Positions 11,304 to 55,289 of a stretch of 64,000 nucleotides of DNA are shown here, piece by piece (within the stretch, counting starts at the first letter, position 1; every line of letters begins with the position of its first letter). The stretch comes from Lysinibacillus louembei (GTDB lineage Bacteria > Bacillota > Bacilli > Bacillales_A > Planococcaceae). The position numbers were made by a program, and so were the translations under genes. Location of the stretch: contig NZ_CP137624.1 of NCBI RefSeq assembly GCF_033880585.1, forward strand, positions 2,763,501 to 2,827,500. The letters are read 5' to 3'. A model generated the notes under the pieces. That model was given only the letters and a program-made list of their open reading frames with translations. It was not told the DNA's origin and searched no databases.

Positions 11304-11332
11304 GAGCTATCTCAATTTGGGGTAGCTTTTTT
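11304..11332 (+). terminator. Terminator after the carboxyltransferase gene
   Basis: Stem AGCTATCTC / GGGGTAGCT (two G-U pairs) followed by seven T residues, just after the stop. Confidence 0.8.
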
Positions 11333-11355
11333 ATGTTGATTAGCAATGTTGAATT

Positions 11356-11460
11356 ATATCAGCGGGTTTCAAGGATATATCGGTGACTTTTGAGCAGATA
11401 TCAGCGGTTTTTCAAATATATCGGCGAGTTTCACACATATATCAGCGACTTCCCAACAAC
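11356..11460. repeat. 21-bp periodic array 1, word ATATC(A/G)GCG
   Basis: Five units begin with ATATC at 11356, 11377, 11398, 11418 and 11439 (spacings 21, 21, 20, 21). The conserved half is ATATCrGyGryTTyy; the other half is variable. The array starts about 20 nt after the preceding terminator and ends 30 nt before the next gene. It is one of five arrays of the same period with different words in this window. Confidence 0.85.
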
Positions 11461-22149: not shown

Positions 22150-22412
22150 CCTCCTTTTCAAAATAAAAAAGCGCTCTCGTCCTTAAAAATATAAGGACGA
22201 AAACACTTTGTTTCCGCGGTACCACCTTAGTTCACATACAAAAATGTGCCACTTCGCCTTTTTAACGCAAAGGGGACGGTTATGTTTTGCATAACGAGCT
22301 CGAAAGTAGGTTCAATAAATAAAGCGGGTATGCTGCTTGCACCAAATGCAGCACTCTCTAAACACCATTTATTTATTTACTTGGCTTTGTCGATGCCCTA
22401 ATATTTAGAATA
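22150..22412 (-). ncRNA. T-box leader, proline specifier likely
   Basis: Minus-strand leader with the T-box core GGTGGTACCGCGG at 22214-22226 and a 15-bp terminator (GTGTTTTCGTCCTTA with TAAGGACGAGAGCGC, three G-U pairs) followed by TTTTTT, just before the proI RBS. Stem I holds an AGAGAG element and, on its 3' side, the segment GAACCTACTTTCGAGC; CCT (22308-22310) is the likely specifier codon, for proline. Uncharged tRNA-Pro would stabilise the antiterminator and turn proI on. Proline T-boxes are known for this gene in Bacillus. Confidence 0.92.
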
Positions 22413-29345: not shown

Positions 29346-29391
29346 GAAAGGGGTTCGCTACATGGCAGAAGCCCCTTTCATTATTATTCTT
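29346..29391 (+). terminator. Terminator after argH
   Basis: GAAAGGGG ... CCCCTTTC with an inner TTCGC/GCAGAA pairing, followed by a T-rich (TTATTATTCTT) tract. The 21-bp array begins directly behind it. Confidence 0.7.
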
Positions 29392-29491
29392 GCGGGCGAA
29401 TATAGGCATCTTACGGGCGATTTTTTATGTTTCATGGGCGAATATAAGAGGCTTACGGGCGAATTCACCTACCTTGCGGGCGAATCAGTTC
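29390..29491. repeat. 21-bp periodic array 2, word CTT(G/A)CGGGCGAAT
   Basis: Five units; GGGCGA begins at 29394, 29415, 29436, 29457 and 29478 (third is ATGGGCGA), spacing exactly 21 each time. Read on the minus strand the word is TTCGCCCG(C/T)AAG, which codes FARK in one frame. The last unit lies within the 3' end of the NERD gene, so the array supplies that gene's final codons and stop. Confidence 0.9.
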
Positions 29492-30367
29492 TGGAATTTC
29501 ATAGTAGGTGTATTTTCCGCGTTTTACGATAGGTAAAAGCCTCAATAATCGCTTTGCTGCATAACGTGAAGGTAAATCACACAACACACAAAACTGCTGA
29601 TTCGTTATTTTCGTATCAACTAATAATCGAAAATCATGCAATGCTTGGAAATGGGCATATTTGTTTTGAAAACGGCAATGTGGGCAAAGAAATTTACCAT
29701 GAGCAAAGCGCATTTTCGCGGCACATTTCTCACAAAACACACCGCATTTCAATTGCTCTAATGTAAAAGTAAATGCCTCTTTTTTAGGAGAATGTAAAGA
29801 CAACAGCTGTGCATAAACCTTATCTAAATCAAGTATCGGCTTACAATGCTGTATAAGTTTTTTCTCGATAAAGCTCAGCACATAATCCGCATGAAAAATA
29901 GGGGAATCGGGAGGCTTGCTCGCAATGATGGCACGGCGATTTGCGATGACAACAGCACCGTGAAGTGGGATATAGGGAAAGAAAGAAGAAAGCGCACGTA
30001 AATGCCGGTTGAGTTGTTCAATAGGGTTAGCAAAACGCTCAGTAACGCCATCAGCACGGGTTCGAAGCAACTGCGAGGACTCCGCATCAAAATGCAGCGT
30101 GCCTGCTATATTTTTCACCTCAAGGCACACAATCAATGACGGAAAAATTACGATAAAATCAATTTCGTGACGCTGCTGCTGTGCATTAAAAAAGGAGAAA
30201 TTGCGAATGACACGATGTGGTGTAGCAAGCTCCTGTAAAAAGAATTGCACCTCATCCTCACCGGAAACTCCGACATTTGCCATAGCAAGCTGCTCTTTAA
30301 AGTACAAATAATCTGGATGGAACGCATCAATTCTTCTAATAATTGCTTCAAGTTGTTGAAGCCTCAA
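29465..30367 (-). CDS. NERD-domain nuclease-like protein with zinc ribbon
   Basis: 300 aa, TTG start behind GGAGG. The NERD domain (about 35-145) has GEDEVQ, HEID (D70), EVK (E83, K85) and PIEQLNRH, the PD-(D/E)xK-like nuclease pattern. A zinc ribbon follows: C212, C215, C228, C231 in FCEKC...FLCPHC. A C-terminal helical part (about 240-295) may bind nucleic acid. NERD proteins are inferred, not proven, to be nucleases. A close paralogue at 54.4-55.3 kb is frameshifted. The last six codons (IRPQGR) are made from array 2 sequence. Confidence 0.85.
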   Translation of the reverse strand: MRLQQLEAIIRRIDAFHPDYLYFKEQLAMANVGVSGEDEVQFFLQELATPHRVIRNFSFFNAQQQRHEIDFIVIFPSLIVCLEVKNIAGTLHFDAESSQLLRTRADGVTERFANPIEQLNRHLRALSSFFPYIPLHGAVVIANRRAIIASKPPDSPIFHADYVLSFIEKKLIQHCKPILDLDKVYAQLLSLHSPKKEAFTFTLEQLKCGVFCEKCAAKMRFAHGKFLCPHCRFQNKYAHFQALHDFRLLVDTKITNQQFCVLCDLPSRYAAKRLLRLLPIVKRGKYTYYEIPELIRPQGR

Positions 30368-38454: not shown

Positions 38455-38964
38455 ATGAATATCAGCGCAGGACATTGGCATGTTGGGACAGGAGCAGTAG
38501 GCTATATAGATGAAGTAACAGAGGCAAGGCGCGTTGTAAAGCGGGTAGCAAGCTTATTGCAGCAAGCGGGTGTAGAAGTGCGCGTCATTTTCGATAATAT
38601 GTCCAAAAATCAGCGACAAAATTTAAATTATTTAATTCATGCACACCAAAAGGACAAGGGCTTACATGTTAGCATCCATTTTAATGCGGTCGCAAAAGCG
38701 ACAGCCGGCGGGCTAGGAACAGAGGTGCTTTACGCGAGAACGGAAATGCAGCAGCTTGCTTCCAAGGTAAGTGCAGCCATAAGCAAGGCGAGCGGCTTGC
38801 GTAATCGTGGTGCTAAACGGCGGAACGATTTAGCCTTTTTAAACGCCTTGCCACAAGCCATACTCATTGAAGTATGCTTTGTTAATTCAAAGGAAGATGT
38901 TGCTTGCTACAAGCGCCATTTTGAAGCAATCTGTCAGGCAATGGCGCTAGTGCTAAAGTCATGA
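38455..38964 (+). CDS. N-acetylmuramoyl-L-alanine amidase, Amidase_3 type
   Basis: 169 aa from ATG 38455 (RBS AGGGGGG). Cleaves the amide between MurNAc and the stem peptide. Zinc ligands: SAGHWHVGTGA (His), a Glu in IDEVTEARR, and VSIHFNA (His); the catalytic Glu is in LIEVCFVNSKEDV. It has no signal peptide, SH3b, LysM or SLH domain, so it resembles the single-domain catalytic parts of phage endolysins or sporulation amidases. Export route is unclear. The gene is isolated: no holin or phage gene beside it. Confidence 0.85.
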   Translation: MNISAGHWHVGTGAVGYIDEVTEARRVVKRVASLLQQAGVEVRVIFDNMSKNQRQNLNYLIHAHQKDKGLHVSIHFNAVAKATAGGLGTEVLYARTEMQQLASKVSAAISKASGLRNRGAKRRNDLAFLNALPQAILIEVCFVNSKEDVACYKRHFEAICQAMALVLKS

Positions 38965-39043
38965 TTCGCACGTAAGACAACAAAAATCGCACGTGAAACA
39001 AGCACATTCGCACATAAAACCTAGAGATTCGCACGCAAACGAA
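38964..39043. repeat. 21-bp periodic array 3, word ATTCGCACG(T/C)AA
   Basis: Four units; TCGCA begins at 38966, 38987, 39008 and 39029, all exactly 21 apart. It begins at the amidase stop codon and ends before the convergent terminator at 39051. One frame reads FARK/IARE/FAHK/FARK. Word related to arrays 2 and 4. Confidence 0.88.
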
Positions 39044-39050
39044 GCAAGCC

Positions 39051-41724: not shown

Positions 41725-42621
41725 TTGTTAGTATTACAAAATGTAACGAAGCGTTATAAAGATTTTACAGCCGTTCAAAGCTTAAATTTTTCCATTTCAC
41801 CTGGTGAGATTTTTGGATTAATTGGCCAAAATGGCGCAGGGAAAACGACAACGTTTCGCATGATTTTAGATTTGCAGGAGACGACAGAGGGCGTTATTAC
41901 GTGGGAAGGAACGCCTATTAATGATGTGAATCGTGACTTGCTTGGCTATTTGCCAGAGGAGCGCGGCATTTTCCCACAAATGAAGGTGGAGGAGCAGCTT
42001 ATTTATTTTGGACAGCTGCGTGGCATGACGAAAGCAGCTGTTAAAAAAGAGGCTGATTTTTGGATTAAGCGCTTTGAGCTTGAGGAAAAGCGCAATGATA
42101 AGGCGGAAACATTATCAAAGGGAAATCAGCAAAAGGTACAATTAATTGCTAGCTTTATTCACAAGCCAAAGTTTTTAATTTTAGATGAGCCATTTAGTGG
42201 ACTAGACCCAGTGAATAAGGATTTATTAAAAAATGCGATTTTATTATTAAAAGAGCAAGGTATGACGATTTTATTTTCAAGTCATCAAATGGATAATGTC
42301 GAGGAGCTATGTGACCATCTTTGCTTATTAAAGCGCGGTGTTTCGCTGTTTTCAGGCTCGCTCTTAGATTTGAAAAAGCAGTATGGTAAAACGAAGCTAA
42401 CGATTCGCACAGAGCTGTCCGCGGATAAGCTAGCCAAGCTTGATGGTGTGAAATCGGTGAAGGAAGAGCGTGAGCAATATGTGCTTACTTTAGAGGATGA
42501 GCAATATGCGAAAGGTGTGTTTGATGTCGTATCGAGCGGTACATATATTGAAAAATTTAGCTTAGATTACTTGTCACTCGACGAGATTTTCAAAGACAAG
42601 GTAGGTGGCACGCATGTCTAA
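41725..42621 (+). CDS. ABC transporter ATP-binding protein, NatA-like
   Basis: 298 aa from TTG 41725 (SD AGAGAGGAG); TTG 41716 three codons earlier is the alternative. Complete NBD: Walker A GQNGAGKTT, Q-loop, signature LSKGNQQKVQL, Walker B FLILDEPFSGLDP and H-loop SSHQMD. The C-terminal about 85 residues are the extension typical of NatA/YhaQ-type exporters. It overlaps the permease start by 8 nt. Probably exports a cation, drug or peptide; the substrate is not known. Confidence 0.9.
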   Translation: MLVLQNVTKRYKDFTAVQSLNFSISPGEIFGLIGQNGAGKTTTFRMILDLQETTEGVITWEGTPINDVNRDLLGYLPEERGIFPQMKVEEQLIYFGQLRGMTKAAVKKEADFWIKRFELEEKRNDKAETLSKGNQQKVQLIASFIHKPKFLILDEPFSGLDPVNKDLLKNAILLLKEQGMTILFSSHQMDNVEELCDHLCLLKRGVSLFSGSLLDLKKQYGKTKLTIRTELSADKLAKLDGVKSVKEEREQYVLTLEDEQYAKGVFDVVSSGTYIEKFSLDYLSLDEIFKDKVGGTHV

Positions 42622-43846
42622 ATTTATGATTTTATTGAAGGAAAATTATAAGCAAAAGGTCAAGGCTAAATCATTTATTATTATGACGGTCTTGTATATT
42701 TTAGGGATTTCTGTGTTTTTCTTCTGGTCAGATATAAAGGAAGCACTATTTTCTAGTGAGCCTGATCAAATGATTTATGTCAATACGACAAGCTTTGATG
42801 TTAGTGCCATGCTAGAGGATGGCGATATCGTATGGACAGAGCTAGCCTCTACGACAGAGGCAGAAGAGGCCTTGAAAAAAGAGGAGTACGTGGCAGCGCT
42901 GATTTTTTCCGCAGCGGATACAACATTGGCAGTCAATTTAGTGTCGCTTGACCCGTTGCCGTTAAATATGCAGCAACAATTATCAGCAACTGCCAATACA
43001 ATTGGACAATTTTATGCGATGGATCAATTAAATTTAAGTCCTGAGCAGTCTGCACAGCTGTTAAATGCTGCACCGCAAATTGAAATGAAAACATTAAATG
43101 AAGCGGCGACAGATGGCAAGTCAGAGGAACAAAAATCAGCAGGTATGCTTGTTTCCTATATTGCTGGCTTCCTAGTGTATATATTCGTTATTTCATTTTT
43201 ATCCATTGTCACTTCTGATGTTGCATCAGAAAAAGGCTCACGTGCTTTGGAAATGCTGCTAGTAAGCGTTAAAGCGGAAACGCATTTTAAAGCGAAGGTT
43301 ATGAGCATATTTTTAGTTGCTGTAACGCAATTCGCTGTGATGTTTGGCACATCATTTGTACTATTAAAGCTAACTGATGGCGGTGCTAAATGGGCGATGG
43401 TAAGTGAAGTGTTAGGAGAGCTTCACGGTCAATATTTATTGTATGTCGCTGCATTTTTACTCGTGACAATTTTCATGTTTTTAATTATCGGAGCACTGCT
43501 CGGCTCGCTCGTATCAAAGCCAGAGGAAGCTTCACAGGCGATGATGCCTGCAATGATTTTAGTTATTGTGGCATTCTTTATTATGGTAACAGCAACAGGA
43601 AATCCTGATACATTGCTTGTGACAATCGCATCGTATGTGCCATTCACATCGGGAATGGTAATGCCAATGCGCATTGGTGCAACAGATTTAGGTGTGCTTG
43701 AGCCAGTAATTTCTTTAGCGATTTTGGTTGCATCAACATTCGTGCTTTATTTAGTGAGCATATCCTTCTATAAACGTAGTGTATTAACATACTCGACAGG
43801 CGGATTGATTCAAAAAATTAAAACGGTGTTTAAGGTGACAACTTAA
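42614..43846 (+). CDS. ABC-2 type permease, NatB-like
   Basis: 410 aa from ATG 42614 (SD AGGTAGGTGG). One N-terminal helix (about 18-38), an extracellular domain to about 175 (QMIYVNTTSFDVSAMLEDGD), and then five to six helices (MLVSYIAGFLVYIFVISFL; VMSIFLVAVTQFAVMFGTSFVLL; LLYVAAFLLVTIFMFLIIGALLGS; AMMPAMILVIVAFFIMVTA; ...). Same layout as NatB/YhaP. Forms the exporter with the preceding ATPase. Confidence 0.88.
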   Translation: MSKFMILLKENYKQKVKAKSFIIMTVLYILGISVFFFWSDIKEALFSSEPDQMIYVNTTSFDVSAMLEDGDIVWTELASTTEAEEALKKEEYVAALIFSAADTTLAVNLVSLDPLPLNMQQQLSATANTIGQFYAMDQLNLSPEQSAQLLNAAPQIEMKTLNEAATDGKSEEQKSAGMLVSYIAGFLVYIFVISFLSIVTSDVASEKGSRALEMLLVSVKAETHFKAKVMSIFLVAVTQFAVMFGTSFVLLKLTDGGAKWAMVSEVLGELHGQYLLYVAAFLLVTIFMFLIIGALLGSLVSKPEEASQAMMPAMILVIVAFFIMVTATGNPDTLLVTIASYVPFTSGMVMPMRIGATDLGVLEPVISLAILVASTFVLYLVSISFYKRSVLTYSTGGLIQKIKTVFKVTT

Positions 43847-43856
43847 TATAGAGGAG

Positions 43857-43897
43857 GCTTGGAATCTGGGGAAATCCTAGATTTCAAGCGTTTTTTT
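43857..43897 (+). terminator. Terminator after the NatAB-like pair
   Basis: GCTTGGAATCT ... AGATTTCAAGC stem then TTTTTTT; array 4 begins 3 nt later. Confidence 0.8.
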
Positions 43898-43900
43898 ATT

Positions 43901-44002
43901 TTCGCTCAACGAATAGTAAAATTCGCTCATCAAAGTACGATTTTCGCTCAACGAAAGCCCGAATTCGCTCATCGAAAATTGAAATTCGCTCGCATCTCCC
44001 TG
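43901..44002. repeat. 21-bp periodic array 4, word TTCGCTCA(A/T)CGAA
   Basis: Five units; TTCGCT begins at 43901, 43922, 43943, 43964 and 43985, exactly 21 apart. The plus-strand frame through all five is open and reads FAQR, FAHQ, FAQR, FAHR, FARI at each unit start. The region lacks an RBS or start codon, so it is not called a gene. The remainder of the 284-bp gap holds a promoter region at about 44050-44100. Confidence 0.9.
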
Positions 44003-47664: not shown

Positions 47665-47695
47665 ACACCAAGGTAGCTGCCTTGGTGTTTTTTTA
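47665..47695 (+). terminator. Terminator after the bmrCD-like pair
   Basis: ACACCAAGG-tagctg-CCTTGGTGT then TTTTTT. Confidence 0.85.
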
Positions 47696-47697
47696 TG

Positions 47698-47776
47698 AAG
47701 TGATCGAATAGCTGATAAAAGTGATCGAATAACCTGTAAAAGTGATCAAATAGAAGCTAAAATCGCTCGAATAGCA
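47698..47776. repeat. 21-bp periodic array 5, word AGTGATCGAATA
   Basis: Four units; the GATC (or GCTC) tetramer begins at 47702, 47723, 47744 and 47765, exactly 21 apart. Third unit has GATCAAAT, and the fourth is ATCGCTCGAATA, a bridge to the TTCGCTCA word of array 4. Directly behind the terminator. Confidence 0.88.
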
Positions 47777-47848
47777 TAATCTGTTTTACCATTTATGGAT
47801 TTTATTTGTTATACTACTTAATATAGGGATAGCAAGAGGGGAAAAATA

Positions 47849-54414: not shown

Positions 54415-55289
54415 GGTAAGAATCTGCTCAGGAATTTCATAATAAGAATGTCCTCCCTTTTTCAGCATAGGTAAAATCTTTAATAGCCGTTTCGCTGCAT
54501 ATCTCGATGAAATATCGCACAGCCAAGAAAACTGCTGATTGGTAATTGTCGTGTCAACAAGCAAACGGAAATCATATAATGCTTGAAAATAAGCGTATTT
54601 ATCTTGAAAACGGCAGCGCAAACAAAGGAATTTACCATGTGCAAAGTGCATCTTTCACAAAAAACACCACGTTTTAATCGCATGAATGTAAAAGTATATT
54701 GCTCTTTTTTAGGGGAATGTAGGGACATCAGATTATTGTAAATGTTCTCGATATCCATTACAGGCTCTTGGTACTGCATTAATTTTTTCGCAATAAAGCT
54801 TGTTACATAATCTGCGTGAAAAATAGGAAAATCGTGAGGCTTGCTTGTAATAATAGCCCGGCGATTCGCAATGACAACAGCACCGCAAATAGGAATAGTG
54901 GGGAATAAAAAGGAGAGCGCGCGCAAATGGCGGTTTAATTGCTCAATCGGGTTTGGAAAGCGCTCTGTCACGCCGGCACGCATACATAACAATTGTGAGG
55001 TTTCCATATCAAACTGCAAGGTGCCCGTCATATTTTTCACTTCAAAGCATACAATCAATGAAGGAAAAATGATAATAAAATCAATTTCATGGCGTTGCTG
55101 CTGTGCATTCAGAAAGGAAAAATTGCGAATAATCCGATGCGGCATAGCAAGCTCCCGTAAATAGAATTGCACCTCGTTCTCACCAGCAATGCCAGCATTC
55201 ATCATGGCTAGCTGCTCCTTCAAATGCAAATAATCTGGATGAAGCTCATGCAGCCTTCTCATAATGGCTTCAAGCTGTTGAAGCTTCAA
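54400..55289 (-). pseudogene. Frameshifted NERD/zinc-ribbon paralogue
   Basis: Clear paralogue of the NERD gene at 29465-30367, with matching TTG start and GGAGG and high identity for the first 215 residues, including GENEVQ, HEID and FEVK. Near 54650 the gene lacks 11 nt compared with its sister (GTGCATCTTTCAC here versus GCGCATTTTCGCGGCACATTTCTCAC there). This removes the residues between the two Cys pairs and shifts the frame. The second Cys pair and C-terminus (MHFAHGKFLCLRCRFQDKYA...) continue in the other frame to 54400. Read unshifted, the protein ends early at 54480 with unrelated sequence. It is most likely inactive. Confidence 0.88.

Follow-up and report, generated by a model that had tools for sequence, protein, structure and literature searches.

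REP sequences and BIMEs are palindromic repeats that are dispersed through intergenic DNA, often at 3′ ends and in convergent gaps, with BIMEs alternating in orientation. CRISPR arrays alternate repeats of at least about 20 bp with spacers of comparable length that derive from foreign DNA. Short polar sites such as KOPS/SRS, Chi and AIMS are solitary and spread through genes. Iterons, DnaA-box clusters and plasmid centromere repeats are phased direct repeats bound cooperatively; they are confined to a few loci at most and have a fixed word, which for the DnaA box is TTATCCACA.

Here we analyse arrays of direct repeats that resemble these systems in part. They lie in a stretch of 64,000 nucleotides (the window), which spans positions 2,763,501-2,827,500 of the 3,960,254-base single contig of the source genome (G000). 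A sequence-only reading of this stretch had pointed out five intergenic arrays and had proposed that they form a protein-binding ladder, a 3′-end element or a family of decayed coding repeats. The relatives compared are Metasolibacillus sp. MAG (G061), Metasolibacillus meyeri (G002/G062) and 'Bacillus ndiopicus' (G001/G063). Judged by the protein encoded at 42605-43843 of the window, these are the nearest of the named genomes (99%, 92% and 86% identity, respectively), and Ureibacillus and Lysinibacillus come next in the same scan with 45-55% identity. By this measure the source genome most likely belongs to Metasolibacillus, in the family Caryophanaceae. G061 is about 98% identical to the source genome over about 230 kb of aligned sequence.

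Five arrays with a 21-bp period

The window holds five non-coding arrays (Table 1). Seventeen of their 18 unit spacings measure 21 bp and one measures 20 bp, with the register of array 5 taken from 21-base blocks. The strict period described by the sequence-only reading is thus a real periodicity with helical phasing. In a triple-unit test, which asks for three units at one lag that agree in at least 9 of 12 columns, lag 21 gave matches at arrays 2, 3, 4 and 5 only across the whole window. For the other lags from 12 to 30 the best agreement was at most 7 of 12 columns, a value that 100 order-2 Markov surrogates made from the whole window did not surpass either. Array 1 fails the triple-unit test because of its 20-bp step and was detected by TRF.

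Beyond the window, we analysed a 1,001,500-base sample of the source genome, consisting of the window, 137.5 kb nearby and 40 stretches of 20 kb placed at even distances. Base-by-base autocorrelation of intergenic DNA was too diluted and lags between 7-mers were used instead. By the triple-unit test, the sample contained 16 non-coding arrays at lag 21, three at lag 20 and none at the other 14 lags between 15 and 30.

As had been claimed, a stop codon or a terminator-like hairpin precedes all five window arrays (read by eye), and array 2 in addition reaches into a convergent ORF at the 3′ end of that gene. The ten ORFs that flank the arrays include argH, ABC transporters, an mmdA-like gene and others (NCBIfam).

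Table 1. Repeat arrays of the window and adjoining features (window positions)
Feature	Position	Strand	Unit spacings (bp)	Basis
Terminator-like hairpin and T-run directly 5′ of array 1	11305..11332	+		by eye from sequence
Array 1, class D, A-rich reading CGCTGATATA / CGCCGATATA, 5 units	11355..11459	-	21, 21, 20, 21	TRF and sequence reading
Array 2, class C (TTCGCCCG), 5 units, flanked by argH terminator and convergent ORF 3′ end	29391..29490	-	21, 21, 21, 21	
Array 3 left boundary, differs from TAGTTCAAAAGTAATGA at 3 positions; overlap with stop codon of the preceding ORF	38948..38964	+		
Array 3, class B (TTCGCAC), 4 units	38964..39049	+	21, 21, 21	TRF, triple-unit test
Terminator-like hairpin and T-run directly 5′ of array 4	43857..43899	+		by eye from sequence
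Array 4 (focal array), class A (TTCGCTC A[AT]C[GCA]AA), 5 units	43900..44002	+	21, 21, 21, 21	TRF, triple-unit test
Terminator-like hairpin and T-run directly 5′ of array 5	47665..47694	+		by eye from sequence
Array 5, class E (AAGTGATC[AG]AATA), 3 units	47698..47760	+	21, 21, 21	TRF, triple-unit test
Final unit of array 5, AATCGCTCGAATA	47761..47781	+		

Word classes and unit anatomy

Inside the window each array has its own word, apart from the TTCGC(C/A/T)C shared by arrays 2, 3 and 4, a kinship that we can uphold. However, the words are not private to their arrays but recur elsewhere in the genome. They fall into about nine recurring classes, which we treat as one superfamily because alignment by eye on one strand shows a shared A-rich form around CGC. 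Genome-wide class patterns, which also permitted gaps shorter and longer than 21, returned 144 spacings for classes A, B/C, D, E, H and I in the source genome, 140 at 21 bp and four at 20. All spacings were 21 bp in class A (TTCGCTC, 23/23), B/C (TTCGC[AC]C, 28/28), D (3/3), E (TTYGATCACTT, 11/11) and H (TATTCYACG, 25/25); class I (TATCTGCG) had 50 of 54 at 21 and the other four at 20. Backward-pattern controls gave no matches, except for two with B/C. Class G/F (TATTKGCG), with 209 forward and 55 reverse pairs, forms long arrays that mostly step by 20 bp; its places are those among the matches listed, up to 0.55 Mb. Class-G arrays (TATTTGCG) at L100:2194-2609, L281, L282 and L283 are long, satellite-like and mostly of 20-bp period, and some long class-G arrays show a 40-bp higher order.

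A profile of class-A units from four genomes (23, 52, 21 and 34 units, with the core TTCGCTC fixed by the search pattern) revealed about 16 constrained positions and about five nearly free bases per unit: positions 14-18 of 21 carry at most 0.54 bits each, and most other positions carry more. Some class-A units contain a short TTCG..CGAA inverted repeat. The A/B/C arrays share a left boundary, TAGTTCAAAAGTAATGA, made up of the 17 bases that precede the first word, with up to 1.5 bits per column in 61 arrays from five genomes (50 if the near-duplicate G061 is set aside), and on the right side of the same 61 arrays no column exceeds 0.2 bits. Within three mismatches, TAGTTCAAAAGTAATGA occurs 11 times in 1.0 Mb, five times at arrays or a single unit. 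In class E, a GCTC-type unit (..CGCTCA/G..) comes after the last E word in five of the six arrays. The 'bridging unit' noted earlier in word 5 is one of these recurring units; the array at 824,851 has none, and at 3,281,276 the GCTC-type unit is followed by another E-like unit.

Exact-word chains at a step of 21 comprise three to five units (20 chains for class A of M. meyeri, 16 for A/B/C, 15 for I and 8 for H), counting chains of at least three units, and with a degenerate word or another step splitting a chain. Degenerate units lengthen some arrays, for example at about 3,535,245, and five units is not a strict limit. Linkers are about as similar within arrays as between them for class A of M. 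meyeri, I and H, so that simple duplication of units is not supported as the origin of these arrays. For A/B/C of the source genome, linker identity is 0.37-0.45 within and 0.29 between arrays. Second-neighbour units are more alike than neighbours in class I (0 of 2000 permutations) and A/B/C (P = 0.003); this excess is marginal in class A of M. meyeri (P = 0.06) and absent in H (P = 0.29).

Solitary copies of the class-I 8-mer number 21, versus 23.3 expected, and all 21 lie in ORFs; that is, none stands alone outside ORFs. Of the other words, only TATTCCACG is in excess (13 versus 7.6 expected), compared with 1 versus 6.3 for TATTCTACG, 96 versus 127 for GAGCGAA and 3 versus 2.9 for TTGATCACTT. 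Outside ORFs lie 2 of the 13 solitary copies of TATTCCACG, 15 of the 96 of GAGCGAA and 1 of the 3 of TTGATCACTT.

Gene context and replication polarity

Gene context was determined for 52 A/B/C arrays of the source genome, M. meyeri, G003 and 'B. ndiopicus', with long ORFs only as gene calls; 50 arrays had a called gene on both sides. Among these, 25 lie in convergent gaps, 24 in tandem gaps (14 ++, 10 --) and one in a divergent gap. The 391 background gaps of at least 100 bp in the source genome comprise 50 convergent, 246 tandem and 95 divergent ones (Fisher test: convergent 25/50 versus 50/391, P = 7e-9; divergent 1/50 versus 95/391, P = 7e-5).

In the source genome dnaA lies at 1,009,604-1,010,917, and the cumulative GC skew is lowest near 1.0 Mb and highest near 2.95 Mb. 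Relative to these landmarks, the A-rich word runs from ori to ter in all segments of class I (17/17), H (12/12) and E (6/6), that is in 35 of 35, nine on the right arm and 26 on the left. The same direction was found for class G (12/12) and F (3/3) among the places listed or sampled, all on the left arm. Pooled, classes I, H, E, G and F run from ori to ter in 45 of 45 separate places, with G and F again among the places listed or sampled. Genes in tandem gaps generally run with the fork (80%, 171/213), and the upstream gene points towards the array in 42 of the 45 polar-class places. All 17 polar-class places in convergent gaps keep the polarity, and there gene direction cannot decide it. The fetched places of the remaining classes show no clear polarity (D 5/6, A 7/11, B/C 8/15); array 1 is the single exception among the six class-D places found. 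In G281, a genome of another family, three of eight places were for polarity, three were against it and two were too near the origin, with ori and ter taken from a coarse skew. The classes also differ in location: 22 of 31 A/B/C arrays lie on the right arm of the source genome, versus 9 of 33 I/H/E arrays (Fisher test, P = 0.001).

Turnover between genomes

Comparison of the same loci in the source genome and G061, as the sequence-only reading had proposed, revealed whole units gained or lost. Arrays 1 and 5 are each shorter in G061 by exactly one unit of 21 bp. A class-C array at 2,673,725 has five units in the source genome versus one in G061. Array 3 has been rebuilt; where the source genome has array 2, a class-A array is found in G061, within a differing stretch of about 270 bp with near-identical flanks. 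Array 4 differs in G061 by one substitution inside the array, and the corresponding site of 'B. ndiopicus' (L126) holds three units of the word ATTCGCC (by eye). Six class-A loci show differences of one or two units between the two genomes; in two the change is at the leader end, in four it is internal, and the other loci compared have the same units. Only three of the 11 class-A loci of the source genome share flanks with a class-A array of M. meyeri, for which 27 loci were compared.

Substitutions between the source genome and G061 amounted to 11/726 in words, 3/225 in linkers, 3/184 in boundaries and 102/4781 in flanks, 33 of the 102 coming from one pair; the counts cover 12 of the 13 tested array pairs and leave out pair L093/L238. 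Word counts are thus about those of the flanks and linkers show no excess, which speaks against strong short-term purifying selection on the words.

The local amplification suggested by the sequence-only reading fits these gains and losses of units as well as the long 20-bp class. As the origin of the short arrays of class A (M. meyeri), I and H it is not supported, but A/B/C arrays of the source genome show a modest within-array excess of linker likeness.

Two further sites differ between these genomes. At L098:6889-6989 the source genome has a class-D array; at the same place G061 (contig C22) has a different array, together with an additional gene that by eye is GNAT-like and one remaining unit, GTTGCTGATAG. 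At about 2,690,675 of the source genome lies a 35-bp tandem unit, ATTTGCTCCTGCGATTACTCGTCGCAGTTAAAACC, of which G061 has two additional copies.

Spread among Bacilli and viral records

Similar arrays with other words are present in other Caryophanaceae and in some other Bacilli. Of 299 Bacilli genomes, 45 contain GCGA repeated four times at 21 bp; this number should not be read as one of true ladders, since other words and exact coding repeats exist, and a backward control fires in several genomes too. We examined 32 loci from the GCGA search and two added stretches, and 15 of them hold 17 arrays, mostly outside called ORFs; the 15 include the source genome itself and some near-exact satellites (L186). 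Their words include TTTATCAGCGATT, ATTCCGCGAAA and CGCGAATAGA. In G281, 12 of 12 spacings are 21 bp. When the triple-unit test was run over lags 15-30 on 392 kb of Lysinibacillus and Ureibacillus loci, it detected two non-coding arrays, both at lag 21. An array of more than 800 bp with a 21-bp period and the words TTCGTGCGTTTGC and GTGCGGATAC lies at L074:12488-13320 in a genome of another genus of the family (G013).

When array 4 was compared with plasmid and phage records by blastn, no match was found, and a mobile or viral origin was rejected on this ground. Twelve IMG/VR contigs contain three TTCGCTC at 21 bp; 11 of them carry repeats of other kinds (7 inside ORFs) and one holds a true array. 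This contig, viral by label (IMGVR_UViG_2791355087_000011, L202), has an array that looks the same as one of M. meyeri (L214), so that the array-bearing part is probably host DNA.

Comparison with described systems

Like REP sequences and BIMEs, the arrays are dispersed, intergenic and present in many copies, and those of classes A/B/C are enriched at 3′ ends and in convergent gaps. However, their units are repeated directly in steps of 21 bp, their linkers are nearly free and their words fall into several classes; 10 folds of five arrays (classes A, B, D and E) gave no signal of a palindromic stem-loop unit (z -1.44 to 0.64). With minisatellites (VNTRs) they share tandem units whose number varies between genomes that are about 98% identical, and the long class G/F arrays fit this description, the whole units of class G being near-copies. 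In contrast, the short arrays have few units and repeat mainly the word, with independent linkers in class A of M. meyeri, I and H. The linker identity within A/B/C arrays of the source genome, although above the between-array value, is far from that of near-copies, and A/B/C arrays have a conserved left boundary.

A conserved word, a variable linker of fixed length, a leader-like left boundary and a variant last unit in most class-E arrays are reminiscent of CRISPR, but here about 16 positions are constrained and about five free, and unit changes are not confined to the leader end. Furthermore, no cas gene is present among the ten ORFs beside the window arrays (NCBIfam), and blastn of array 4 matched no plasmid or phage record. 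A long array with a period of about 66-69 bp and a CRISPR-like look (repeat ATTTCAATCCATTCTCTCTATACAGAGAGAAAC) does occur in the source genome at about 3,110,343-3,114,029 (L063:10343-14029).

Classes I, H and E, and G and F at the places seen, resemble KOPS/SRS, Chi and AIMS in having one orientation relative to ori and ter. Unlike these, the words stand in phased non-coding arrays, classes A/B/C are not polar, and solitary words are not over-represented apart from TATTCCACG. Finally, helically phased direct repeats are also typical of iterons, DnaA-box clusters and centromere repeats, but the arrays occupy dozens of loci with many words, and neither an initiator nor a partition gene was found among the ten flanking ORFs (NCBIfam). 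By eye, the words TTATCTGCG and TATCGGCAA resemble the DnaA box, whereas those of classes A and C do not. Thus, the short arrays fail at least one defining feature each of REP/BIME, CRISPR, minisatellites and polar motifs. No description of them was found in open-access literature (full-text searches, six word strings included), in agreement with the earlier statement that no named system fits.

Interpretation and alternatives

Our tentative reading is that the arrays belong to a single family of non-coding DNA elements, dispersed over the chromosome, that would serve as protein-binding ladders, with a role as architectural or boundary elements; we regard this as possible rather than probable. 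Among the three options of the sequence-only reading, a putative protein-binding ladder remains the best. If each word is taken as a binding site on the 21-bp lattice, successive sites would lie on the same face of the helix, two helical turns apart, and could be bound cooperatively. One protein, or paralogues with slightly different words, might in this way form a short filament between transcription units. From the polarity of I, H and E, and of G and F as seen, the binding partner or the process that makes the arrays might sense fork direction. The balance tilts slightly to function because linkers are independent in three of four sets, the boundary is conserved and solitary class-I words are lacking outside ORFs, but the substitution counts and the fast turnover oppose this tilt.

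These last points would suit the main alternative, a functionless by-product or selfish sequence. In this doubtful yet possible explanation a replication-linked process (template switching or slippage on one strand, or an enzyme acting on single-stranded DNA) writes and rewrites words at 21-bp steps where they are tolerated, behind terminators. Whole units come and go, four of them at one site, and words change about as fast as flanks; I, H and E follow the fork, the long 20-bp arrays are satellite-like, and convergent gaps are presumably the least constrained places. However, linkers are not visibly copied with words in class A of M. meyeri, I and H, the left boundary is conserved, the last unit recurs in five of six E arrays, and 3 of 11 loci have the same word class in M. 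meyeri. Word-only likeness with independent linkers in those three sets would also be expected if units were added from a template, one per class, that supplies the word while the linker bases are new, as in CRISPR adaptation or by telomerase. Discrete classes, a leader-like left boundary, a recurring last unit and a fixed step point in this direction, but such a mechanism is improbable: growth is not strictly at the leader end (two of six class-A unit differences, versus four internal), a 5-bp insert is unlike known adaptation, and A/B/C arrays of the source genome show some linker likeness within arrays.

Selection for intrinsically curved DNA, with A/T patches about 10.5 bp apart and little weight on the exact word, would agree with the predicted bend, which has a median of 92 degrees in 56 arrays versus 45 degrees in 1154 intergenic 84-mers (wedge parameters). 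With column-permuted arrays of equal period as the control, the bend is larger in H (9 arrays), I (12) and B/C (9) and less clearly so in E (4), but A (8), D (3), F (2) and G (8) do not exceed the control, which rules out curvature as a universal feature. It would also leave the exact words within an array unexplained, and we give this reading little credence. An RNA-level 3′ element, acting as a terminator aid or as a stability or processing signal, would account for arrays just behind genes and for upstream genes that point towards them in 42 of 45 polar-class places. Yet arrays often lie behind a terminator, A/B/C orientation has no preference in tandem contexts (14 ++ versus 10 --), and polarity is kept in the symmetric convergent contexts (17/17). 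The folds of five arrays gave no signal, and Rfam has no match at the window arrays. The 3′-end option of the sequence-only reading is weakened by the missing strand preference and folding signal, and we consider it very unlikely. Decayed coding repeats (FA[RHQ]K) are scarcely credible. A unit of 21 bp does equal seven codons, and the class-A frame TTC GCT is open in 23 units of the source genome (by eye), but the same class in G002/G062 and G003 has in-frame TGA, TAA and TAG (for example TTC GCT CAA TGA and TTC GCT CAT TAA). This refutes a coding origin for class A in the relatives, and the arrays used lie mostly outside called ORFs.

To return to the protein-binding ladder, a more far-reaching version can be formulated: an undescribed class of elements in Caryophanaceae and other Bacilli, with a 21-bp lattice, a self-consistent but freely changing word that is copied a few times without its linker, fork orientation in several classes, and a co-evolving protein that would read it at the ends of transcription units. 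In this full form we think the proposal unlikely. If the ladder reading is true, a family of bacteria would mark its transcription-unit ends with a ruler that proteins can read, constant in its 21-bp step but with a word that differs from genus to genus. It would offer a handle on the factors that organise convergent gaps in the chromosomes of Gram-positive bacteria, and on how repeats keep their words alike without copying the bases between them. If the arrays are only a by-product, the fork-oriented classes would reveal a strand-specific process that writes DNA behind terminators. Both readings can be put to the test with the near-identical genome pair and the named relatives.

Other features of the window

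Elsewhere in the window, the only Rfam match is a T-box leader at 22190-22402 on the minus strand (RF00230, 109.8 bits). The segments 29465-30367 and 54480-55289 (minus strand) look like diverged copies, which in G061 match each other with about 74-76% DNA identity. The former, directly at array 2, has a weak match to the N-terminal part of MAD6/PglW kinase models.
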